Positions 5,362-56,758 of a stretch of DNA of 64,000 bases are shown here, piece after piece. The translations under genes were made by a program, and so were the position numbers. Numbering within the stretch: the stretch's first letter is position 1; every line of letters begins with the position of its first letter. The notes under the pieces are model-generated. The model ran no database searches. It saw only the letters and a program-made list of their open reading frames with translations, and had not been told where the DNA came from. This DNA is from Porphyridium purpureum (lineage: Eukaryota > Rhodophyta > Bangiophyceae > Porphyridiales > Porphyridiaceae), in the NCBI GenBank assembly GCA_008690995.1, contig VRMN01000010.1, positions 372,001 to 436,000 of the forward strand, in the 5' to 3' direction.

Positions 5362-5808
5362 CGCCAGATCTAGACCTCAACAGATCCGACGGCTCTGTTC
5401 TCCGCCGTTCTCCTTGCCTCTTCCTTTCCTCTCTCCCTCGCTCTGCAGCCTCGTCGCGCCGCGCGTGCCGAAAAGTTGAACGCGTGAAAAAAGATATTAA
5501 ACATATATTAAACTAATATTAATCATATATTAAACATATATTAAACATATATTAAACAATCAAAAAATACATGCGAGAGACCTTAAAAAATATTTCCATG
5601 AAAATAGCCGATTTTAGTAGAATAAATGTACAGTGAGTACTGTTTTCTGACCGTACCTTTGAGTTCAGGAGGAAGGAAGGTGGTTGGATGCGACTTACCG
5701 AGGAACAGCAGCGGCAGCAAAAGAAGCAGACGCAGACGCAGGAGTTGGTGAGAAGCTGAAGGATGTGGGTTTGACGGTCGACTAGCAGGCTGAGAAACGC
5801 GCTGCGCT
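5362..5808. promoter_or_regulatory. Upstream region of the Cys-tRNA synthetase gene
   Basis: 447 bp between the synthetase start codon and the end of the upstream minus-strand gene. It holds a pyrimidine-rich stretch next to the start codon (about 5395-5445), an AT-rich 11-bp tandem array at 5502-5556, and a GTACAGT box (TGTACAGT, 5627-5634). No coding frame has a plausible start. Confidence 0.5.
5502..5556. repeat. 11-bp AT-rich tandem array (CATATATTAAA, 5 units)
   Basis: Five head-to-tail units of 11 bp: four exact CATATATTAAA (5502, 5524, 5535 and 5546) and one diverged unit at 5513. It lies 141-195 bp before the synthetase ATG, in the position where the AT-rich core promoter would be expected. 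A related single element (ATTAAACATA) sits at a similar distance before the RRM gene near 61138. Confidence 0.85.
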
Positions 5809-8808: not shown

Positions 8809-9563
8809 CCCTTCTCCTTCTCCCCCCCGCGCGCGCCCGCATCGCGCAATCCGTCTTTATCTCAACTGTACCTTATGACTCATTATCAGCTTAACGGTTA
8901 ATAGTCAAGTACAGTTAAAATCATCAAACGACTCTTTTTTTCTGAGAACTCGTCGGATGGTCTCGCTATCATGAAACGATGCTGTTTCAATAGACTATCT
9001 ATTAAATCAGTCGCGTTTACAATAAACAAAACTGGTTCATTAAGCCGAATCCGACACAATTCGGGTTTAAAGCGATTGACTCGACACGATCCAAGCGTGG
9101 ATGAAACCCGACGAGCGCCACGCCGCAGTTGCTCAAGGTTCGGTTCGCAGTGTCACACATAGACTGCTGGATGCTCAAGCTCTTAGATCTACCGCAAGGT
9201 CTACCGCAATGCCTTCGCATGACGACAAAGGAGGGCTTCATGAAAAGGCGTACCAGGCGCACAGAAACAGGTTGATGCAAGCGGTTTCGCGGTTCAATTT
9301 CCGCGGCTCGACGCGAAGAATCTATTTAAACCGTTAAGAGATGATCATAGTAAAATGATGTTATTTGAATGAACGCGAGAAACCCTAGACCGTAACCGAT
9401 AAAGTGGGAAATCTATTTAAACCGTTAAAGAAAAAGCATATTAAAGTGCTGCTCTTTAGTGATAAGAGAGAAACCCTAGCTTGTAACCGATAAAGTGGGA
9501 GAAGGTGTGAGTGGCGCGTGTGGGGGCTGGTGGTGCAGGTGGTGGTGGTGGGTGTGAAGAGGG
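8809..9563. promoter_or_regulatory. Divergent promoter between PPR-like and DAO genes
   Basis: 755 bp serving two head-to-head genes. Close to the PPR-like start lie ACTGTACC (8865-8872; GGTACAGT on that gene's coding strand) and GTACAGT (8909-8915). TTAACGGTTAA lies at 8890-8900. On the other side is the 91-bp tandem duplication described separately. The middle is AT-rich and non-coding. Confidence 0.6.
9319..9500 (+). repeat. Two-copy 91-bp tandem promoter duplication
   Basis: Copy A spans 9319-9409 and copy B 9410-9500, exactly 91 bp each. Three blocks are conserved: AATCTATTTAAACCGTTAA at the start, GAGAAACCCTAG (9377-9388 and 9468-9479) and GTAACCGATAAAGTGGG near the end. The sequence between blocks has diverged strongly, which suggests old duplication with selection on the blocks. 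Copy B ends 64 bp before the ATG of the DAO-family gene. AAACCCTA resembles the plant telo-box. Function as promoter modules is inferred. Confidence 0.85.
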
Positions 9564-22287: not shown

Positions 22288-24360
22288 TTATCTTTTGCGC
22301 ACAGTGAGCAAGCCATTGGGTACGAGGCCTGCTTGTTCGAGCGTGAGCTGGTGGGTGGCAGGTAGAACTTTCTGAGGAAATCCGGACACCAGATCGAATT
22401 CGGACTCTTCTAGTCCTGTCTCGCTGATGACAAAATCGTACACGTTGCGCACGGTGTTGCGCGCCTCGAAGCGCCGAAGCCGTCTTGACCCGTCCAACAT
22501 TCGCACGGCCAGCTGCGTTACCGTGCCTCCGCTGCCTGACGACGCTGGCGGGGGCTCTAACGGTACCTCGGCACGTTTCGTCTGTTTGCGTACCTCTTGT
22601 TCGTTCAATGCGCGCTCACGCTGCATCGACTCTAGCCTCGCCCGTTCTTCGGCTTCGCGCGCATTCTCCTCGCGTGACCGGTCCATCGCTAGCGCCATCG
22701 CATACTCCTCATCTTGCTCACGGCGAATATCTCGTGCCTCGCGAAGCACTGGGTCAAGGTTGCCTTGCGGCGGCGGTACGTACCGTGGCGGACCATAGTC
22801 GAACGCACTTGCCGCACTCGAATGCGCATTCGCGCCCACGGCGGGCGCTGCGTTCAAGGTAGCCGAAGTCACAGCTACAGCATCACCAGATTCCTCACTC
22901 TCGTCCATGGCATCGACGTCAATCTCCACGGATGATGAAAGCGGCGCTGCCGTTTGCTCCAATGACGCAGCAATGGCCGCGGCCATCTGCGCATCCTCAT
23001 CCATCAAGACATCGTGATCTGAGAAATGGTTCGCAGCTCCGTGCGAAGCTGATTGGCTCGCGACGACATCAGCCGCCGCGGCAGCGTCTGCGGCGCGCTT
23101 TCGAAGCGCATTTGAACGTCTCCGGTGCGCTGGACCGGTGGCGTTGCCTTCCAATGAATGGGAATCCAAAAATTCCATAAGATTCTCAAGAAGAGCACTT
23201 TTGCTTAGGCTGTCCATGTCTTCCACCCCACTGCTGTTCCACTCCACCAGTCGCTCACCACTTCGCGGGTCCAACAGGGCAACGTGAGGCAAGCAGGAAA
23301 AAGGGTAATAGGTTCGATACTGCTCACCGTCGGCAGACACTGAGTATCGCTGCCACAAGAGAAAAGAAGCCTTGACGAGCTCCTGCACAGTCTCGTCGTT
23401 CCACACATCGCTGTTGAGCACATGGCTACGAAAATCATCATGACCTTGAATATTGACCAGCACCCATTTCCTGTCGCGCTGCCCGGCCTCGAGCGCCCGC
23501 TCCAAGGATCCGTAGAACAGCATCTGGCTGGGAGGTCTGTACATGTTTGTTAGTGATGACGTGAACCGCCGCTCATTTGGAGCCAAACTCTCCGCTTGTG
23601 CCTGCGCGTGCGCTTGAGCTTGTGCAAGTGGATTGAAAACGCCATCGGCATCACTTACCACTGCAGTGGCAGCGCGATCGCGAAATGACGGCAGTGGAGC
23701 CATTAGCCGAGACCTCGCTTGCTGGGCCGCGCTTCCACTCCTGTCTGGCAAACCGAGTGCGGGTCCGGGCGGTGACTGCCGGGAAACGGGCGGCTCATCG
23801 GCATGTATGTCGAAGGCGGCGCTGAAGCCGTGCCTTAGAGCCATGCGCTCTGACGCGCTGTGCGCGCTTTCTGGGACATTATCAACAAGCCGCTGCACGC
23901 GCTGCTGCATTGGTGGCCTCACAAAATCGCTGTCCAAAGCGCCAACTCCGGTAGCATCACGGTCGCCGGGCAGAGAGGGCCGTCGAGCACGCTGTCGTTG
24001 TCCGCGCCTCGACACGTTGCCCGCCGTCACCGCCGAGTCCGACTGTGCTATACTAGCTCCGGCGCCTTGTTCCTCTGCCAGCGAAGCTGCCAACGCGGCG
24101 TCCAAATCCGCCTCCTCTTGCGGCGCACCCTCATGGTGCTGAGCGTCCGAATGTGCGGCGCGCGGTCCTGCCGCCGGCGCTGCGTCGTGCGGCACGCCGC
24201 CGCCGGCGTCCTGAATGGCGAAATGCTGCGCAAGCGACTGCTCCAGATCCAGTCCCGCGGCATTCAGCATATCCTTCGCGTAGTCCTCACTGGTGACGCC
24301 CGTGATGCTCATAAACTGCGCGACGACCTCTGCGTCGGCCGCAGACATGGACACCGACAT
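22288..24360 (-). CDS. UBXN7-like: UBA-UAS-UBX protein, UBXN7/Ubx5-like p97 cofactor
   Basis: A 690-residue adaptor of the AAA ATPase p97/Cdc48. Domains in order: a UBA-like ubiquitin-binding helix bundle (about 6-46, ending SLAQHFAIQ), a UIM-like helix (84-97, DLDAALAASLAEE), a disordered linker, a thioredoxin-like UAS domain (about 272-400, from MLFYGSLERALEAG to LLENLMEFLDSH), a second UIM-like helix (AQMAAAIAASLEQ), a charged coiled-coil region, and a C-terminal UBX domain (about 612-690). UBXN7 links p97 to ubiquitinated substrates of cullin ligases. The ATG at 24360 opens directly into the UBA-like domain; an ATG at 24546 in the same frame would add residues encoded by a (TC)n tract and is more likely 5' leader. 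Confidence 0.88.
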   Translation of the reverse strand: MSVSMSAADAEVVAQFMSITGVTSEDYAKDMLNAAGLDLEQSLAQHFAIQDAGGGVPHDAAPAAGPRAAHSDAQHHEGAPQEEADLDAALAASLAEEQGAGASIAQSDSAVTAGNVSRRGQRQRARRPSLPGDRDATGVGALDSDFVRPPMQQRVQRLVDNVPESAHSASERMALRHGFSAAFDIHADEPPVSRQSPPGPALGLPDRSGSAAQQARSRLMAPLPSFRDRAATAVVSDADGVFNPLAQAQAHAQAQAESLAPNERRFTSSLTNMYRPPSQMLFYGSLERALEAGQRDRKWVLVNIQGHDDFRSHVLNSDVWNDETVQELVKASFLLWQRYSVSADGEQYRTYYPFSCLPHVALLDPRSGERLVEWNSSGVEDMDSLSKSALLENLMEFLDSHSLEGNATGPAHRRRSNALRKRAADAAAAADVVASQSASHGAANHFSDHDVLMDEDAQMAAAIAASLEQTAAPLSSSVEIDVDAMDESEESGDAVAVTSATLNAAPAVGANAHSSAASAFDYGPPRYVPPPQGNLDPVLREARDIRREQDEEYAMALAMDRSREENAREAEERARLESMQRERALNEQEVRKQTKRAEVPLEPPPASSGSGGTVTQLAVRMLDGSRRLRRFEARNTVRNVYDFVISETGLEESEFDLVSGFPQKVLPATHQLTLEQAGLVPNGLLTVRKR

Positions 24361-24526: not shown

Positions 24527-24724
24527 CCATGCAACCGCCAGCACATCAACCTCCTTAACCCAAACCCCGCGCGTGTGTTTCCCGGTTCCTTAACCGTTAA
24601 ACCTCACAAAAGTACACTAATTCACGCCCCATTTTTCTTATTATTAAAACCACTCCGTTTTACTAGACTCTAGAACCGTCCCTCACTGTACCTTCACACA
24701 CATCCAAACCGAACCGCCTTGTGA

Positions 24725-24788
24725 CCGAATAGCCGAATAGCCGAATAGCCGAATAGCCGAATAGCCGAATAGCCGAATAGCCGAATAG
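24725..24788. repeat. 8-bp tandem array CCGAATAG x8
   Basis: Eight identical head-to-tail copies of CCGAATAG, then a broken ninth (CCGAA). About 80 bp further on are two TAACCGG and three TACCCGA units, so the CCGA theme continues in diverged form to 24886. A related 8-bp array lies at 33221-33263. Both sit beside GTACAGT boxes in promoter regions. Confidence 0.95.
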
Positions 24789-25219
24789 CCGAACCGTTGC
24801 ATAGTAAGACGCGTGTAAATTTGAAGCGGCGCATCAGACGGTTCTCCCCAGTAACCGGTAACCGGTACCCGATACCCGATACCCGATAAGAAAGTCGCCG
24901 CTTGGATGCGCGAGTTGCGGATGTGGCAGGTGCCTTGCGACGGCCTATGGTCCGAGTGGCACGCCGCGCTGGACCACGTACGCATTACCGCGCGACGTCC
25001 CATCTGGTGTCGTACAGTGAGAGTCGATGTGGCAATAAGGTGGAAAGGAGGAATGAAACCAAGACGGTTGGACTCGGCACACTTCACAAGGATTGCCGAC
25101 TCTTCGGGTCGCGCTCAGCCTCGCCGCCTCAACCCAGTGGCAGCACGCGTTAAAGTTGCGCGTTGTTTCATCCTCAAGCCCCATGAATAAATATCAATAA
25201 TTAACACAAAAAGTGTGGC

Positions 25220-25406
25220 GTACAGTGGATGTACAGTGGATGTACAGTGGATGTACAGTGGATGTACAGTGTATGTACAGTGGATGTACAGTGGATGTAC
25301 AGTGGATGTACAGTGGATGTACAGTGGATGTACAGTGGATGTACAGTGGATGTACAGTGGATGTACAGTGGATGTACAGTGGATGTACAGTGTATGTACA
25401 GTGTAT
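25220..25406 (+). repeat. 11-bp tandem array GTACAGTGGAT x17
   Basis: Seventeen units of exactly 11 bp (187 bp). Fourteen read GTACAGTGGAT and three (25264, 25385 and 25396) read GTACAGTGTAT. Each unit contains the GTACAGT box found singly upstream of other genes in this window, in the same orientation as the CNOT4 gene that starts 247 bp downstream. Because 11 is not a multiple of three, all frames stay open through it; this is not coding. Confidence 0.97.
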
Positions 25407-25653
25407 ATGAAGTGTGTCAAGGTTGCCCTATTTGTATATGAAGGTGTCTGTGTGTGTGTGCTAGGAATAAAAGGAAGAACGTGGGTTTTTGTTATGAAAG
25501 GGGAGAAGCCGAAGAAGAAAGGGTTGACAGGTCGAGTGGGTGGGAGAGAAGGGGACAGAAGAAGAGAGCAGAAGAGGAGAGGGAGGGAGAAGAGCGACGA
25601 GGGGAAAGAGGCAAGGGGGGGAAAGAAGAGGGGGTGAAGTGTGAGCAGTTGCG

Positions 25654-28239
25654 ATGGAGCGGTTTGAGGAGGATGAGGACGGCGTGCCGGAATGTCCGCT
25701 GTGTCTGGAGGAACTGGACACAACCGACCTGTCGCTCAAGCCGTGCCACTGCGGCTACCAGGTGTGCTTGTGGTGCTTGCATCATATCCGCGAGCAGCTC
25801 AACGGAAAGTGCCCGGCGTGTCGGACGCCGTACGCGGAAGAGAAGTTTGTCAAGGCAGAGATCGATCCGGAGGACGCAAAGCGCGCCGCGCGCGAGCGCG
25901 CCGAGGCAAAGCGCGAGCGCGAGCGAAAGGTCAGGCTGCAGAGGCTCGAGAAGGAGCGAGAAGAGGCTAGTGCACAGGCGCAGGCGCTTCCTAAACTGAT
26001 ACTCAAGCAGGCGCGCATTCTTTGTAAAAGCCTCGTCTACGTCAATGGGCTGTCACCCACCTTGGCGCGAGAGGAGGTGCTACGCAGACATGAGCTGTTC
26101 GGGCGGTTCGGGACGATTGAGCTCGTGCTGCTGAATCATCGCAGCTCGGCCCTTCGCGCCAGTAATAATGGACCAGGAGGCCCGTCCATGTCGGCCTACA
26201 TCAAGTTTGTCAAGGATACAGACGCGGCGCACGCCGTCCGCGCCGTAAACGGTGAGATCATGGACGGCCGCGAACTGCGGTGCGCCATCGCAACGACCAA
26301 ATACTGCGACTCTTTCATAGAGACTAATTGCGCTGAAAACGGCGACAGTGGGCTGCTGGTTCCGTGCGAATTGGAAAATTGCCTTTACCTTCACGCGCTC
26401 GCCGAGCCGGAAATCGTTATCTCATCGGCAGAGGACATGCTCGTAACACAGCTTGGGCCCCCGCCACCGGGCCACCTGTTTCCGCGTCTGCCGTCGGCAC
26501 AACCGGTAGCAGAGTCGCATCAGATGGGCAAGATTGTGTCAAACGCAGAGAAAGCCGTGCGCAGCGCACGCCAGAGCAGCACAGGAAAACCACGAAGTGT
26601 TGCGGGCCCTTCTTTGTCGGTTTCTCTCAATACTCAGCGACAGCAGCATTCTGCGGGTGTGAGCAGCACTTCTCTGGTTCCACTGGACCAGCTTGCGCCC
26701 CACCAGAACGGTGTGCATGCAAGTGGTGCTTTCTCAGACACGAGCCGGTCAATATCGGGAGGCAGCGCAATACTGTTTCCGTCGGGTTCCGTCTCAGTTT
26801 CGAGCGCGGGAGCCGGGACTGGGGCGGGTGCAGGGGTGTCGACCTTCTCGTCGTCCCTTTATCCTGAATCGACGACGACCGCCTTTAGTGCCGACTCTCC
26901 GCCGAAGCACAACAAGGTGTATCCGCCCGGGTACGTCGATCCGTTTGACGAAGAGAAGCCTCCAGCACTGGCGTCTGTCTCGGTCTCTTTGCGAAGCGTT
27001 GGCGCGACTATATCCAGTACCGCGAATAGTAGTGGTAGCTACAGCGGGCTTTATGGCAGCGCCAATGAGACAATGCGCACGAAAGGAAGTCAAGATAGTT
27101 CGGTGGCACCGGACAGAGCGTTCAGCGCCTCTCCAATCGTACCACCACCTGGCTTCGAAACATTCAAGATGAATGGTTCACTTGCGCAGAAGGGCGATTC
27201 CATACCACCGCCTCGGTCAGGGGGAGTGCCTGGAACGGAGAGTGGTGCGGAGTCAGACCACAGTAGCCAAGAGAGGGCCGCTACTGGGGGCACACATACC
27301 CAAGTATTGCCAGACGTGTCGGCGGAGATCCAAGAAATTTTGATGGGTCTGAACGGAACGGTGCAATCTCTGTCCTTGGGTGAAAGACAGGAATCTCAGC
27401 CACCCGGCATCACGCCAGCAGTTGGAATGACGCACACCACAGACGCGGCAGCCCCCGCAATGGCGGCTGCCGTGCAGATGCAGATGCAGATGCCACCTCT
27501 AATGACAGCGGAGCATGCGTATCCGTACACGAGTCGAGAGTACTCGCGTTTTGGGTTTGCGCGGGGTGGAAGCGGGGTACCTTCGGTGGATAGCCGCACC
27601 GTGGAATATCAGTCGAGTGCCGGACCGGCCGCTAAGGCGGTCACGGCAGCGACGGTGGCGCCTGGTCAGCATGCTCTTCCAGAGTCCTTCTATGGAGTGA
27701 GCATGTATGAGTCCTCGAGCCAGAATCAGAACGCTTCGTCTAGTATTCTGAGCATGATTCTAGGTGCAAACCAGAACCATAAAGCGGCGGCGCCGGTGTC
27801 GCATGTCGTGAGCGCAGCAGAGCTCGAGTCAAATATCTCGAGGTACAGCAGGAACATGAATGTGAACGCCGCGCCAGAGGCAAGCGCAAAGCTGCCGGTA
27901 CAGCCATCACTTCAGCAACCGATCAACATGATGCCTCCTGGTTTCACACCATTCGCTGCCGCGACCCATGCACAGGGCATGCCGAATGGAGGCGGTTGGG
28001 CGGCTCTGGACTCGGTCTTGATGCGTGGTAGAAACGCCAGCAGCGGAATCACGGATGGCGGAAGCGTGATTGGTGAAGCAGCAGGCGCGAGCTCGTCAGG
28101 TGGAAGTACAGGCCAACCACCGGCTTCTGGCGAGTTCGGTGCGGGAGTCGCAAACCACTCCTCGCCATTTCTGCACCATTCGTATCGCGCAACGTCTTCC
28201 AACGCCTACGCTTCGTCCGAATATATGGCGTGGCCGTAA
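25654..28239 (+). CDS. CNOT4: CNOT4-like RING-RRM E3 ubiquitin ligase
   Basis: An 861-residue protein with the architecture of CNOT4/Not4, the E3 ligase of the CCR4-NOT complex that ubiquitinates ribosomal proteins and stalled translation products. The N-terminal C4C4 RING has cysteines at 14, 17, 31, 33, 38, 41, 53 and 56, the spacing specific to CNOT4 (CPLC, CHCGYQVCLWC, CPAC). A charged coiled-coil follows (about 75-105), then an RRM (about 118-205, VYVNGLSPTLA to ELRCAIATTKYC), and a CCCH finger (TTKYC to CLYLH) that carries an extra 13-15 residues compared with animal CNOT4. The C-terminal 600 residues are Ser/Gly/Pro-rich and disordered, as in other Not4 proteins. The start codon lies just after a purine-rich leader. 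Confidence 0.93.
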   Translation: MERFEEDEDGVPECPLCLEELDTTDLSLKPCHCGYQVCLWCLHHIREQLNGKCPACRTPYAEEKFVKAEIDPEDAKRAARERAEAKRERERKVRLQRLEKEREEASAQAQALPKLILKQARILCKSLVYVNGLSPTLAREEVLRRHELFGRFGTIELVLLNHRSSALRASNNGPGGPSMSAYIKFVKDTDAAHAVRAVNGEIMDGRELRCAIATTKYCDSFIETNCAENGDSGLLVPCELENCLYLHALAEPEIVISSAEDMLVTQLGPPPPGHLFPRLPSAQPVAESHQMGKIVSNAEKAVRSARQSSTGKPRSVAGPSLSVSLNTQRQQHSAGVSSTSLVPLDQLAPHQNGVHASGAFSDTSRSISGGSAILFPSGSVSVSSAGAGTGAGAGVSTFSSSLYPESTTTAFSADSPPKHNKVYPPGYVDPFDEEKPPALASVSVSLRSVGATISSTANSSGSYSGLYGSANETMRTKGSQDSSVAPDRAFSASPIVPPPGFETFKMNGSLAQKGDSIPPPRSGGVPGTESGAESDHSSQERAATGGTHTQVLPDVSAEIQEILMGLNGTVQSLSLGERQESQPPGITPAVGMTHTTDAAAPAMAAAVQMQMQMPPLMTAEHAYPYTSREYSRFGFARGGSGVPSVDSRTVEYQSSAGPAAKAVTAATVAPGQHALPESFYGVSMYESSSQNQNASSSILSMILGANQNHKAAAPVSHVVSAAELESNISRYSRNMNVNAAPEASAKLPVQPSLQQPINMMPPGFTPFAAATHAQGMPNGGGWAALDSVLMRGRNASSGITDGGSVIGEAAGASSSGGSTGQPPASGEFGAGVANHSSPFLHHSYRATSSNAYASSEYMAWP

Positions 28240-32816: not shown

Positions 32817-33220
32817 GCCCACCTGTCTGAGCCTGCCCCCTCTCACACACGCAACTGTACCTCCACTTCTCTGCTTTCTCTCTCTCTCTCTCGCGTCCGG
32901 TCGCACATCAATTCCCGCTGTCACACTGTACCCCGGCCCGATTCCACACACGAACCGCACGCGCAGCCAACGCCTCGCGTTTGGCACGGGAAGAACAGAT
33001 AACAGCGCGCCAGAACTCCGAGCACAGGCGGTGTGGACACAAGCACACGGACCGCGCTCCCGCATCACAGCCGCACAGCTTGGAACATGACTGGCCGCAA
33101 TCACCCGAGACATCCGTCGTCTGCAACTTTGCAGGCCTCGCTTGTCTCCCGCACGCAACGATCCATTCATGCCAACCGACTCCCCGCCAACCCTGCATCC
33201 CTTATCGGCTCATACACAAC

Positions 33221-33263
33221 CCGATACGCCGATTAGCCGATTAGCCAATACGCCGATGCGCCG
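33221..33263. repeat. Degenerate 8-bp CCGA array
   Basis: Five units in 8-bp phase: CCGATACG, CCGATTAG, CCGATTAG, CCAATACG and CCGATGCG, then CCG. The two CCGATTAG units differ by one base from CCGAATAG at 24725-24788. A second phased stretch of ACAAGCCG-type units follows at about 33295-33320. Sits 60-100 bp from an inverted pair of GTACAGT boxes. Confidence 0.8.
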
Positions 33264-33537
33264 CCAACATATCATCGCTTCTCGGCTCGCACCCACAAGC
33301 CGACAAGCCGATAAGTCGTTAAGGACTGTACCGTCCGGTGGATATGGTGAAAGGAGGTACAGTTTATCTCGGAGATCGTTTGTGTGTGTGCGTGCAAGTG
33401 ACGAGCGGGAGAAGAGCGGGGGAGAGAAGAGAAGAGAGGGAAGAGAGAGAAGACACGGACAGAGATGTGGTGGTGATGGTAGGTAGGTGAACGTATCGTT
33501 CGTGGTCTGCAGTGGCAAGGTACGCGTGGCAGCGAGA

Positions 33538-37287: not shown

Positions 37288-38162
37288 CCTTCCGCGCTCT
37301 TCCCTCTTCCCTCCCTCCCCCTCCTCTTCTCCGTCTTCTCTCTCCTTGTCTCGCTCAACCCGGTCCAGCGCCGGGTCACCTCACTAAGACTTACTGTACC
37401 TTATACCGGGTCAGCACGTTCAACTTGTGTACAGTTCGGCAACTGTACCGCATAGTACAGTTCAGGCCCGCACGATGTCGAACTTTGGGTTGGCGGGTCA
37501 AAGGTATTGTGGTGAAGGGATGGACGGCTTGGTGCGGTCTGGCGTGCGGTCTGCGGAGCCAGCGCGCACACGGAGTCGCTCGCCGAGCTGATGTGACTCT
37601 ATTTCGAACGGCAGGTCTGGATTGGTGCAGTTCGGCACGACTGTGTTGGGTTGACGTTCAGTGGTACGACGGACGGCTACCAGGCGCGGTCACCAGAGTG
37701 TGAACGTGCCAAACGTCACTTGGCGATTGTTAAATGGGGTGAGAGCACGATAATTGCGGGAATGTCAGAGGGCAGATTGCGGCTGCTTCTATGGCGGCCG
37801 TTCGGGAACCCGTGCCAGACCGTTTCTCAAGCGCAGATTGCGATTCGTGTCGGCTTGCATTAAAGGCTAGCGTTCGACTCGCATGCCAAATTTTTGGCGT
37901 TGCTGGCGAGCGTCTGGTCCACAAGCTCCCGCCTGGCCACAAGATGACCCATTGGTGATAACGCAAATAATGTCAAACTGAACTTGTGTATGACGGCATG
38001 TAAAGATCCAATGCATTGGACGAGTTTAATCAGGCACACGTAGAACCACGAGAGTTCTTGCGTAGAACTAAAGAGTCAAGCGATGCTAGAAGGGATCATG
38101 GCAACAGCACAATCGAACCATGTCAGCCCAAGAGTCCAAATTCATTCGTATCTTTCTCCGCA
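37288..38162. promoter_or_regulatory. Upstream region of Nup88-like gene with four GTACAGT boxes
   Basis: Within 69 bp (37393-37461) four boxes alternate in direction: ACTGTACC (37393-37400), TGTACAGT (37428-37435), ACTGTACC (37442-37449) and GTACAGT (37455-37461). The nearest is about 106 bp before the nucleoporin ATG. The rest, to the end of the Cys-rich gene, shows no gene I can support. Confidence 0.6.
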
Positions 38163-38756: not shown

Positions 38757-40380
38757 CTCGATTTCCCTGCACGTCCCGCAGGAACCACCACCATCTACCT
38801 TTACATTCCCTCCCCTTCTCGCCACGCTCCCACCGCCTCCAGTCCTTCACCAATCTTTTATACTCCCACGACTCAGACACGCGCCTTGGTCCACCATGTG
38901 CGCTTTGGCTGCGAGAGAAGCGCTGTGTGCGTCGCTATGCCAACGCGCGCGCTCTGCGACGCTCATTGTGTGTGTTGGTGGCACGCGTGTCCGTCCACCA
39001 GGTTTTTGCATCGCACAAGCTGGCGCACACCTATTCCTTCATCCATAGCACAAAACCCCACATCCAAATCTGTTGGCGCTTTCACATAAGCACGCACCCC
39101 GCGCGCACGCGCGCGTGTCCGTCGTGTGAGCAGCAACCGATGTCTCGGTGCTACCCTGCCGGTCCATGAAAACAAGCGCCATTTTCTACGACAGAATTGA
39201 GATCATCCTCACTTCCCTCTTCTTCCCCCTCCTCCTCCCACACTCGCTAGATAAATCAACAGCGTGACCGCGTAGAAAAGGGAACTTGTATCGAAAAAAA
39301 AGGCAAAAAATAAGAAGGAGAAGAAATAAACTGGGAATCTTCCAAATTGGACGCGCTGTACCTCTGCACAAGTTGGTGGGTGTTCTGGAGGTACAGCACA
39401 TGTACCTCTGAAGAAGGACGAGGGTCAGTGGCGCTAGTGGCAGAAGGGCTTTTCGTCCTGCGGGGCATGTGCACATGTCTGCGGAGGAATGCCCGGAATG
39501 TCTGGGTTGGGATGGGATGGTCGTTGCTCCGGCGACGTGGCGCGACGCAAAGACATGTAGTGATTCGGGCAGCTTCTGTGTTGGGTAGAGCGGGCTCGCG
39601 CGGTTTGCGGGCGCAGCGCGAATGGCATTGGGAGATGAGGCATGAATTGGCTGGCGTCGGGGTTGTACAACCGATTTGCATGGTCTGTGCGCTCTGACGA
39701 AAGTGCTGGCTGGAGCTTACACATTCAAGCACTTCTGCTTGTTTGATTTTCAAGGCAGTGACTTTCAAAACAAAAGTCTAGTGTGTCCCGACGAGCGCAA
39801 ATATGTGCGCGCGCACGTGACGCGTACGCGCTGTGCGATGAGTCTTGTCGGCTGTTGATGACGGTGCGATCCGCGTCGACGTCGGCTGGCGTTGGACTGA
39901 ACATGTCTTGCTTTATTCATCGTCGTCGGAAAATCGCGCGGATCCAGAAAGTCTGTAGCGTTTGTCAATCCAAGGTGGATCGCGAAGACAGGTTTGGACG
40001 GTGCCTCAGCAACTTCACATTCCAGTTGTGCGCCGCCTTGCGGTGATGTTCGACTTGGTGGGGCATCTCGAAGGTGCTTGCCGCATCAGCCACGATTCAT
40101 GGCTTTCCGAGCCACTCTCGAATGAGTGGGTCTACAGCCCGGGATCATGTGGGTCTGTTTTCTCTTTCTCGTAGCATCCCATAATAATTCAATTGCGCCG
40201 GGCGCGGTGGCAGTGCCTTTTGCAATTAACACGAGCTCTTCAGACGAAATGGGTCTCTCCTGAGGGTTTATTTAACAGCGCAAACAGTTCACATGGCCGG
40301 CATAACATTAAACTGCTAGACTAATGAGAGTGCTTTGCTTGCACCGGCGATCAGGACTGATCCACCCTGTCGGAATCGCA
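38757..40380. other. 1.6 kb without a supported gene
   Basis: Between the Cys-rich gene start and the Rpt2 gene end. A set of box-like sequences lies at 39355-39405: GCTGTACC, GGTACAGC and ATGTACCT. They are in promoter-like arrangement but no convincing gene follows on either side: frames downstream on the plus strand (about 39430-40050) lack ATG-started, domain-bearing proteins. An unannotated non-coding transcript is possible. Confidence 0.4.
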
Positions 40381-43349: not shown

Positions 43350-44280
43350 ACCATGCCACGTCTCGCGTGTCCTTCCTACCTCTCTCCCCGCACTTCCACA
43401 GCCTTGACACCCAGTTCAAACAAAACCGCTCCACACCACAAACGCAACTTTCTCACGACCCAATCCCATCCAATTCTCGCTCCCAGCTAGATTCCGATTG
43501 TTCCTGGCACCTCAATCACGGTTCGCGAGACGCGGCAGAGTACGCAAGACACCCGCCGCTTCGTCAAATGCCACTCCACAATTCACCTCATCAACTCCAC
43601 ACCACACACGCACGCACGCACGCACGCCGCGTACTCTACGGCACCCAACTCTCCTCACCTCTTTCACTCGCACTCACGCAGCTGCTCAAAATCTCGGCGT
43701 TGTTTAAACCATTCTTTAAGCACTTATTTAACTCATTGTTTATCCCTTTTTTCACGATTCATCGGTTGCCACAACATCTCACACAAAAAGACTATCAAAA
43801 CGCACGCCAATTGTTGCAAAAATAACATTGCTATAAAAGCAAATCTGTTTTGATATGCATTCTCATCTGCCCCGGGAACCTCCAAAGAAACCAATAAACC
43901 GCTTTTCGCTTTCTATCTAAAATGCGGCCAATTTAATAGTCTTTCGCTCGTGCTGTCGGTCTAAACCGAATTATCCGTTAATAGGAAAAGGATGAGGTAC
44001 AGTGTGTGAAGAGATGAGTAGTGTACAGTATTTAATCTGAGTGGGAGCCTGTCAATTTTCAAAAATTTGAAATGTGGCGTTTGGTTTGATGTCTTTGGGC
44101 GTGAGGGAGAAGGGAAGAGGAACAGCAGCAGGTGGAGAGGCGGGAGGTTTTGCGACGGGAAGGAAGCGGCGCGTGGAGAAGTGCGGCGTGCAAGTTCCTT
44201 TCTTGGCATTCAAGGGGAGCAGAAGGATTCAAAGTGCTCCAACGTGTTGAAAGGGTTTCGATAGGAGCGAATGATCGACG
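43350..44280. promoter_or_regulatory. Divergent promoter of zinc-finger and coiled-coil genes
   Basis: 931 bp. It becomes AT-rich from about 43690 to 44050. Near the coiled-coil gene lie GGTACAGT (43996-44003) and TGTACAGT (44022-44029), 26 bp apart and both in the direction of that gene, preceded by AACCGAATTATCCGTTAATA (about 43965-43984). A CACG repeat lies near 43608-43630. Confidence 0.55.
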
Positions 44281-50263: not shown

Positions 50264-52677
50264 TCTTCTCCTCCGTGCCACCAAAGAAGTTCAGGGAGTC
50301 TTCATGCCCCAGGACGGTTACCTATGACCCACGATTTTATTTTATTTTTCACTTCTTTGAGAGTCGCGGCGATCTGGCTCGATGTATCCTTTTCCCGCAT
50401 TTTGAGTGCTGCCTTTGTGCGCGGGATTTGAGTTTTCAAGAGATTCAGAAAAGGCGATTCAATATCTGCGCGGCCGCCAAACAATCCTCAGGAATTTCAG
50501 TCGAGCAGGAAAGAACATATACCAGCTCCTTAGAAGCACTTGCACGAGTCTCGCGAGTGGGAGTCATGTTTACCATGTTACACGATGCCCCACTGAAGCC
50601 ATTGAAATCTTCACTGGCCGTACGCGAGCGCCAGTCTACTACAGAGCGTATCAGACTTTAAGCTCTTTCGCATGCTTCCAGGGCCGCTTCATCGATTGGC
50701 GCGGTCCCCGACTTTTGCACTGCTCTGCCATCCGAGCTTGAATTTGGGGAAAGTGTCGGGGTCATACTCGAGTCTGACCAAAAAATCATAAGAAGTATGG
50801 TATTTTCTGTGCGTCGCGGACCTTACGGACTAGGTCTAAACGATGCATTCGACAGTTGAAGTAGGGCGTTTACATTTGCGTCCGACGGAAAGACTTGACG
50901 CACGAGTGAATCAACTTTTGTGCATCCTTGACAGTTATTTTATCTATGCAGGCAAACCCACCACGTGCAAGGTCAATCTCAATTGGATTCTCGGCCAATG
51001 CACCGGAAAGAAAGTCGGCTTGCGCCATGCGCAAGCATCAGACACTCGGTACAGCTCAACCCATCGCAACCGCACGCTGCGATTCCTTTTCCCACTGTTT
51101 ACGCCGAACCCGACAGCGTGAGCTGAGCAAAGTTCAAGTAGAACTTGTCATGGACAGCGAGATTCAGAGGTTGAGGTTCGGCATGATGTGGATTAGGATT
51201 GGCACGGTCAAGTGCGCGGCGTCTCTTGAAGCCGCAAGCGTCGGCGGGAACATAGAAAGTGAGAAGAGAAAGGCAGTCTGAGATATTCACCCATGCTGGA
51301 CACGCGCATGCTGGCGCTGTTTTGATCAAGGAGACCTTGCCTGTCCTCTTTGATGCTGAGCATGTGCATCACCGTGGCTTTTGCAAACTGCTTGCTCTGC
51401 ACGCTGGAGCTGCTGGATCATGCTCGTGTCGTTATCCATTGGGGTATACTAGACAGTCCCCATTGTATTTGCCCTGCTTCACGTGCGCGGCTTTGTTATT
51501 CCGACTGAACTTTCGGACGTCATTCAAGCATCCCGCTTTTAGTTCGCATGCGCGTTTGGAATGTCTGCTTGATGCTGCGTATCCGTTTTGTCCGAATGTC
51601 ACATCTACAGAGCTGAAATCGTTTGAAGGCTCACGGTCGAAACGAGTAAGAGCCCCAGGAGGAAGAGCGAATTTGAGTGGTCATCCCTTTAAATGGTCTG
51701 TGGACATATATGTCCTCGGGCGAACCGCATTCCGCGATTCCCGCGCAGGATGCCCGAAGGTGTTCATCGAAATCACATGGAAAAGCGCACAGGAAAGTGG
51801 CGCTGAGGGACGTGCCGAGAATAAAAGCGTTATGTCCCGCCGCTTCCTTTGCTGCCTGACGCTGCAAAATATACAGGACACGAAAGGGTCGCTCATTCCT
51901 TTCCTGATCCTGTTCAGTGCCATACCAAGAAGAAGACCGTCTATCACATCTGTGACTCCCGGCGCCAATCCCATTTCTGCGTGCGCCTGCGTGAGGCTGT
52001 GTGCAGTGGAGCACTGCCCATCACTCACCACCAACACATCTGCTCGATGTCCCGGCGCATCAGCAGCAGACAAACGAGACTTGTCCCCCCCCACCTTGCC
52101 CGCACAAACGCCACCCGAAACATTAAAAAAACACGAATCAATCATTTTATAACGAAACCTTAAAATATCCCGAGCAAAGGTATGCACAGGACACACACTG
52201 TACCTCTCTCATGCTGGGTGAGTGTGGCTGAGGTACAGCGTATATTTAGTAGTGTACACTTTCTTAGGGTTCGAGGTTTCATTGGTGTTGTTTTGGTTCG
52301 GTCATCTTTATAGAGAAGCGCGGCGTTTTTATAGGAATGTGAGTGTGTGCATGATGCTAGCAAGCGCGCGTGGTTTTGATAGACGTGCTCGAGGTATTCA
52401 CGCGGTGGTGGCGTTTTAGAAGAAAGGTGTACAGTGTGTACATGCATGGAGAAACCCTACGGATGTGTAAGTTTATGTACAGTATGTACAGTGCGGGCAT
52501 GGAATTTGTTTTTTTGGCGGCGAGTCTGAGCGGCCGAGGGAGTGAACAGAGAGAGAAGAGAGAGAGACGGGGTTGAGGAAGGGAGTGAGTGGAGACGTGT
52601 GGGTTTTGCCGTGATTGCGGTTCGTGTGGGCGGGCTTGTTGCGGCGCGGCACGGCTCGCAAGGAGCGCGGGGGCGGA
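50264..52677. other. 2.4 kb with no firm gene; PP2C promoter boxes at its right end
   Basis: From 50264 to about 51650 nothing coding can be supported. A weak minus-strand candidate (51681-52145) is listed separately. At the right end, boxes occur as ACTGTACC (52197-52204), GGTACAGC (52232-52239), TGTACAGT (52428-52435), and a tandem TGTACAGT pair (52476-52483, 52485-52492). GAGAAACCCTA (52449-52459) lies among them. A purine-rich leader (52540-52580) follows before the PP2C start. Confidence 0.5.
51681..52145 (-). CDS. Weak hypothetical protein candidate
   Basis: An ATG-started frame of 154 codons with no recognisable family. In its favour: ACTGTACC lies 52 bp upstream of the ATG, which reads GGTACAGT in the direction of this frame, as in supported genes; and the composition is not extreme. 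Against: an overlapping plus-strand frame of about 300 codons is also open, no domain is visible, and the surrounding 2 kb looks non-coding. Confidence 0.22.
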   Translation of the reverse strand: MIDSCFFNVSGGVCAGKVGGDKSRLSAADAPGHRADVLVVSDGQCSTAHSLTQAHAEMGLAPGVTDVIDGLLLGMALNRIRKGMSDPFVSCIFCSVRQQRKRRDITLLFSARPSAPLSCALFHVISMNTFGHPARESRNAVRPRTYMSTDHLKG

Positions 52678-55962: not shown

Positions 55963-56758
55963 TTCGCGCTTTATTGCCTTCTCCTTTCCTTCCTTCACTC
56001 ACACACACACTCTCTCTCTTCTCCTCTCTCTCTCCCTCTCTCCTGTTGGCCCCTCTTGTCACCGCCAACCTTCGCCACCCACTTCTATCAAATTCGCTTG
56101 TTCTATTATAAAACCGCTGTACTTCTTCTCCCCCGTTTCGTTTCTGAGCCGGAACCGCAGAAAGGTTGGTTCCTGTCCGAGTGATTTGTCCTCGGACGTA
56201 GCCGAGTGATACGCTTTCAGACGAGGCGATGAACGCGTCGGCTTGAGGAACAGCACACTCGACACACATGCACACACACAGCTTCACAGACACATAGGTC
56301 ATGTGCAGAAACGGGATCTGAACGAAAGCCGACGACGCGCGAGCACAGAGGACACACACACACACATACACACACAGAGAGAGTGCCAAATGCGCGGCGA
56401 AGGAGAAGGAGAATGTGACAAGCGCAAGCGCAAGCCGCAGGCGAGTGCCTTATTGTAAGGCGGGCGCGGTCCACGCAAGCACGGCGTTGGCCGAATAGCG
56501 CGTAGCAGCGGCAGCGCCACCACGTCGATCGCCAACTCGCTTTCGGTCGCTGCAACTTCGCAGCGTTTGGCTGTACACTACGGCATTCGCACTGTACTCT
56601 CTGCCTGTTAGGCGCACCTTGAACGTCCTGACTGCGAGCAGCGTTTACTCTCGTTGCGCAGCTTCGATGCGGATGGAAAGGGAGAAAGGGATTCCCGTGG
56701 CATTGAGCAAGTCGGTCCCACATCTCCACGATATCCTGCAGCCAATTGGCGACGAAAC
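55963..56758. promoter_or_regulatory. Divergent promoter of EF-hand and VOC genes
   Basis: 796 bp. It begins with a CA/CT-rich stretch (55998-56042), probably 5' leader of the EF-hand gene, has (CA)n runs near 56262-56283 and 56351-56376, and single GTACA-type sequences near 56571 (TGTACACT) and 56591 (ACTGTACT). No gene. Confidence 0.4.

Follow-up and report, generated by a model that had tools for sequence, protein, structure and literature searches.

The UBX/CNOT4 intergenic region and its 17-unit array

The window analysed, a 64-kb stretch of the Porphyridium purpureum genome (GenBank contig VRMN01000010.1, positions 372,001 to 436,000), has a GC content of 55.5% and carries long uninterrupted ORFs. 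These fit the intron-poverty of this species, for which PMC10866757 gives 235 spliceosomal introns. The ORF downstream of the array, which a first-pass annotation had named CNOT4, was examined using Pfam and found to encode zf-RING_4 (8.4e-20) and RRM_1 (3.5e-5) domains, the NOT4-type RING plus RRM combination. All four of its PDB matches at 1e-5 are CNOT4/NOT4 chains. The divergent neighbour encodes a UBA-thioredoxin-UBX protein, whose ORF extends to 24546 but for which an in-frame ATG at 24360, just ahead of the UBA domain, is the likelier start; 24363 was used in the computations. The 1.3 kb intergenic region between the two genes carries 8-bp, ~7-bp and TC simple arrays besides the 17-unit one. 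The region and its two flanking genes have the following features (coordinates are those of the window).

22288–24360, minus strand: UBA-thioredoxin-UBX protein, divergent neighbour (ORF extends to 24546)
24685–24691, minus strand: single box in the extended form RAGGTACAGT, toward the divergent UBX-domain gene
24725–24793, plus strand: second array, CCGAATAG x 8.6, 100% matches (Tandem Repeats Finder), in the UBX/CNOT4 divergent promoter
24852–24889, plus strand: third short array, unit of ~7 bp, TAACCGG / TACCCGA
25012–25018, plus strand: single GTACAGT box toward CNOT4, 642 bp upstream of the CNOT4 ATG and 649 bp away from the UBX start used in the computations
25220–25406, plus strand: 17-unit array, period 11, consensus GTACAGTGGAT (unit-by-unit reading and Tandem Repeats Finder)
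25264 (unit 5), 25385 (unit 16) and 25396 (unit 17), plus strand: GTACAGTGTAT variant units
25407–25417, plus strand: degenerate 18th unit ATGAAGTGTGT, matching GTACAGTGTAT at 7 of 11 positions (counted by eye)
25500–25653, plus strand: purine-rich stretch before the CNOT4 ATG, read as leader (86% A+G in the last 150 bp)
25654–28239, plus strand: CNOT4/NOT4 homologue, 861 aa, zf-RING_4 + RRM (Pfam; PDB matches 2cpi, 1e4u, 1ur6 and 5aie)

Seventeen consecutive head-to-tail units of 11 bp were read on the plus strand, as the first-pass annotation had described, and each of the 17 begins with an intact GTACAGT. Its further claim that only three units vary, by G to T at one position, was also borne out: 14 of 17 units are GTACAGTGGAT, and the remaining three (units 5, 16 and 17) are GTACAGTGTAT, which differs at unit position 9. 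As this variation consists of a single substitution type in about two blocks, the conservation of the box among the units is no evidence of selection. Tandem Repeats Finder reported 16.7 copies with 98% matches and a score of 354, the highest among the 36 rows for the window, and the longest run of exact self-match at lag 11 anywhere in the window was 109 bases, compared with at most 11 in 20 mononucleotide shuffles.

The array ends 248 bp before the CNOT4 ATG, which places a head-to-tail repeat inside the promoter region. The units had all been said to point towards CNOT4, which is correct for the array and also holds for the lone box at 25012; that at 24685 is turned towards the UBX gene. 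The array units are of the ATGTACAGT form, whereas the form found once per promoter elsewhere is RAGGTACAGT. An AT-rich stretch (25185–25215) adjoins the array.

A coding reading of the array was rejected. All three plus-strand frames are open throughout, but a period of 11 bp changes the frame from unit to unit, and translations begun at ATGs in the array stop at 25410, 25441 or 25637, before CNOT4. Searches with an exact double unit found no match in prokaryote genome contigs or viral contigs, as expected for a eukaryote, and no Rfam match was found at gathering scores.

GTACAGT in the upstream regions of the window

The gene set comprised 27 ORFs chosen by hand (24 in the clustering and purine analyses), of which 20 have good Pfam matches. 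No Pfam match was obtained for orf1, orf38, orf42 and orf54, and the names Nup88-like, Nup54-like and PPR-like derive from matches below Pfam cut-offs. An ORF at 51681–52145 (no Pfam match) was counted as a gene only in the orientation test, and divergent gene pairs share one upstream region in the assignment of boxes to genes. A small ORF near 47.4–47.9 kb was left out; a coding-like plus-strand stretch there (~47.4–47.9 kb) lies in frame after the Nup54-like gene, with stops between. A possible intron in the Nup54-like gene, considered as a sample of a splice donor, proved to be two ORFs in one frame split by stops, and no donor was obtained from it. The Rpt2 proteasome ATPase in the window has as its closest PDB chain 8amz_I, which we take to be a plant (spinach) proteasome chain.

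GTACAGT occurs 40 times in the window, 17 times in the array and 23 times outside it, against 2.91 (sd 1.74) expected, and none of 100 dinucleotide shuffles reached 40. Outside the array, 20 of the 23 copies are within 800 bp upstream of the 27 ORFs, three are in coding sequence and none is elsewhere. With only two array units retained, 25 copies were counted, 22 of them upstream by the same definition, three coding and none in the other 10.6 kb (p = 3e-13). The word then ranked first in upstream enrichment among 5,509 7-mers with at least five occurrences, six other simple arrays having been trimmed too before counting; by this measure the array unit contains a word used at other genes.

The enrichment was also seen in noncoding DNA alone, where 22 of 22 copies are within 800 bp upstream of the 27 ORFs (55% expected, p = 2e-6). 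It was weaker when only the 20 Pfam-supported genes, a set without the Nup88-, Nup54- and PPR-like genes, were used with noncoding DNA (16 of 22 within 800 bp against 43% expected, p = 0.005), and was not significant for this set at 300 bp (7 of 22, p = 0.19). Convergent intergenic DNA contains no GTACAGT in 6,413 bp, divergent intergenic DNA contains 17 in 8,019 bp (two being array units), and tandem intergenic DNA five in 5,380 bp. The sequence is strict: the 21 one-base variants each have 0–5 upstream copies against 22 for GTACAGT, and the 630 arrangements of the same letters have a mean upstream count of 1.0 (sd 1.5).

Fourteen of the 27 ORFs have GTACAGT in their upstream region. The box had been noted before at least eight other genes, and the upstream regions of the CysRS, PPR-like, DAO, UBX, GT2, cyclophilin, Nup88-like, Nup54-like, PP2C, EF-hand and glyoxalase genes were each found to hold at least one copy outside the array. 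The distance from the nearest box to the ATG is loose, at 57–655 bp. It is strongly supported that GTACAGT is a promoter-region word within the 64-kb window.

Arrangement and orientation of the boxes

Beyond the UBX/CNOT4 region, boxes occur singly, in tandem and in outward-facing pairs, as follows.

5628–5634, plus strand: single box upstream of CysRS, pointing away from CysRS
8865–8915: outward-facing pair ACTGTAC ... GTACAGT, 44 bp apart, PPR-like / DAO
32854–32931, minus strand: two boxes toward GT2
33325–33363: outward-facing pair, 32 bp apart, GT2 / cyclophilin
37393–37461: four boxes before the Nup88-like gene in alternating orientation, an outward pair 36 bp apart and two more at 13-bp steps
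39355–39397: outward-facing pair of GTACAGC boxes, 36 bp apart, with no well-supported gene in the stretch
43997–44029, plus strand: two boxes toward the Nup54-like gene, 26 bp apart
52197–52239: outward-facing pair ACTGTAC / GTACAGC, 36 bp apart, upstream of PP2C
52429–52492, plus strand: three boxes toward PP2C, the last two a 9-bp tandem pair
56591–56597, minus strand: single box between the EF-hand and glyoxalase genes, toward the farther gene (EF-hand)

No gene was found on the side that the box at 5628 faces. The copies are clustered: with the array counted as one, the 21 sites form 11 pairs separated by no more than 60 bp, where 1.9 would be expected (p = 5e-5). Orientation was examined in seven regions taken as divergent, one with a weak ORF. 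Of 13 mixed pairs there, 12 have the minus-strand copy to the left of the plus-strand copy (permutation p = 0.01); of 20 copies, 15 face the nearer ORF and five face away. The extended form RAGGTACAGT occurs seven times, once in each of seven upstream regions and always toward the ORF on its own side, though one of these seven ORFs is weak.

Homotypic clusters of binding sites are a known general arrangement, and the several copies of one word within 9–80 bp at a number of promoters here are alike; the array differs from them in its perfect regularity and in having 17 copies at a single gene. Outward-facing GTACAGY pairs within 80 bp number seven, spaced 13, 32, 36, 36, 36, 44 and 62 bp. The recurrence of 36 bp gave p = 0.007 under a crude uniform null, the spacing having been noticed post hoc. 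The three pairs concerned are 37393/37429, 39355/39391 and 52197/52233, and the arms of those at 39355 and 52197 extend to CTGTACCTC...GAGGTACAG. Bidirectional promoters with paired inverted elements are a known kind, which the back-to-back copies between divergent genes resemble, but the 36-bp spacing was found here at three places only, and two of these pairs include the GTACAGC variant. A wider generalisation, in which a so far undescribed, near-invariant directional element, set as 36-bp outward pairs in divergent promoters, would be present at about half of the genes in a red-algal lineage, CNOT4 having a 17-fold tunable version, is considered unlikely.

The regular spacing had been taken as evidence that bound factors would sit on one face of the DNA, 11 bp being about one helical turn. 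However, a turn is 10.5 bp, so an 11-bp spacing drifts. Neighbouring sites do share a face (~17 degrees apart), but over the whole array the sites wind round the helix (~274 degrees).

The position of the boxes relative to purine-rich sequence was also considered. Eight genes have a box within 300 bp, and in all eight the nearest one is located 5' of the 40 bp richest in purine, a count for which no null was computed. A 40-bp window with a purine content of 88% or more occurs in the last ~300 bp at 9 of 12 box-bearing genes. Such windows were seen on the sense strand near the ATG in 12 of 24 genes, among them CNOT4, the Nup88-like gene, Rpt2, and the EF-hand and RRM genes. If transcribed, the array would bring 16 ATGs into the CNOT4 leader, with three more downstream. 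These observations are suggestive only, and the array is probably upstream of the CNOT4 transcription start.

Probable expansion of the box at CNOT4 and competing readings

The first-pass annotation described the array as a local expansion of a functional cis-element. The part of this that stands is GTACAGT as a promoter-region word, which is enriched, strict, clustered and partly directional, and of which expansion is the natural reading. On the evidence above we consider it fairly probable that a genuine binding site of the CNOT4 promoter has been expanded by slippage, giving a homotypic cluster that raises or buffers occupancy and sets output.

In this proposal GTACAGT would be a strict, mostly directional, double-stranded promoter element that is bound by a sequence-specific factor and acts at the DNA level, and many genes would carry one to four copies at roughly 60–650 bp from the ATG. 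At CNOT4, a single copy and its 4-bp spacer (GGAT) would have grown to 17 sites by slippage or unequal exchange, upstream of a transcription start that is probably located in or close to the purine-rich leader. With additional sites, occupancy would be higher or better buffered, and CNOT4 output would be set in this way; the copy number of the array would be expected to vary.

SBP-box factors recognise GTAC-core elements, such as the copper response elements of green algae. The GTAC core is common to these and to the box, which here has seven strict bases. Table 3 of PMC4827209 lists no SBP proteins for P. purpureum, and by the same paper C2H2 zinc fingers form its largest family, at 30.2% of transcription factors, hence a zinc finger would be the first guess for the candidate binding factor. 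Promoter tandem repeats such as those of yeast and the human EGFR TCC/Sp1 repeat, as presented in the review PMC3899988, are likewise short head-to-tail repeats whose unit contains a probable site, and by analogy copy number could set expression here too; the present unit is 11 bp, with a box that has no known factor. A tunable promoter at CNOT4 is plausible. If this is true, the dose of CNOT4, an mRNA-turnover regulator, would be evolvable through repeat length, and the natural contrast of one versus 17 copies offers a ready test of site number against output. In addition, a 7-bp word this strict, marking gene starts cleanly within 64 kb, would offer a way into the promoter code of Porphyridium-like red algae; among the open-licence papers listed, none presented a comparable nuclear promoter word for such algae.

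The main rival is neutral amplification of a working box, as the array may be neutral even if one box is functional: a promoter prone to slippage would have captured a single functional box, and the 16 further copies would be idle. The same 1.3-kb region is prone to expansion, as it carries the 8-bp, ~7-bp and TC arrays, the unit variation of one substitution in about two blocks is the pattern that slippage gives, and one box is apparently enough at several other genes. Against this, a random 11-bp upstream segment would include an intact box in only ~0.9% of cases (22 sites x 5 offsets / 12,800 bp, by hand). This rises to a rough 5–7% when several upstream arrays are allowed for, and is therefore modest evidence. 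A neutral minisatellite of this type is possible, if rather unlikely.

Alternatively, GTACAGT could be a signal in the RNA: introns in 5' leaders would use it as a strict 5' splice donor (AG/GTACAGT), as in intron-poor genomes with rigid donors. The strictness of the sequence fits, as do the seven copies of RAGGTACAGT, one per upstream region and toward the ORF on the same side. However, a donor would hardly be expected in both orientations or as a 17-fold array, and the box is not confined to the sense strand, given the five copies that face away from the nearer ORF and the one at 5628 that faces away from CysRS. Furthermore, the last 60 bp of the leaders are 5–38% pyrimidine, the PPR-like leader is only 63 bp, and a CTRAY branch-like site followed by YAG was found in none of six leaders, though shuffles expect about one in six, so this last point is weak. 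The splice-donor reading is considered very unlikely.

An initiator function, with CA at the centre of the box as the start site and the array as a ladder of starts, is similarly given very little credence. The inner CAGT resembles Inr, and the directional tendency of the copies is in keeping with this. However, 11 of 12 box-bearing genes would then carry one or more ATGs between the box and the start codon (3 to 19 for CNOT4), an argument weakened by several genes that carry ATGs close before the assumed start codon (some at 10–34 bp), which are either tolerated or mean that starts are misplaced. Outward pairs 32–44 bp apart and alternating copies at 13 bp would also lead to overlapping initiation complexes. 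Orientation, leader content and geometry thus lowered both the splice-donor and the initiator readings. A replication origin, suggested by iteron-like direct repeats beside the AT-rich stretch at 25185–25215, is extremely unlikely, as the same word is found singly before many genes and is absent from convergent DNA.

Other repeats and words were also observed in the window. A second word, AWTAGCCG, was found in three GTACAGT-bearing upstream regions (one of them as the 8-bp array) and once in coding sequence, which is too few to judge. The GT2/cyclophilin promoter has a degenerate CCGATACG array (33221–33263; 5.4 copies, 80%) that resembles the 8-bp CCGAATAG array. Upstream of DAO are two copies of a 91-bp tandem repeat (9319–9500), each with AACCGTTA and a CCGATA word; CCGATA-type words showed no clear upstream enrichment in the window. 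Upstream of CysRS, AATAGCCG starts 25 bp before the GTACAGT at 5628, and another 11-bp array, ATATTAAACAT x 5.9, is located at 5494–5558.
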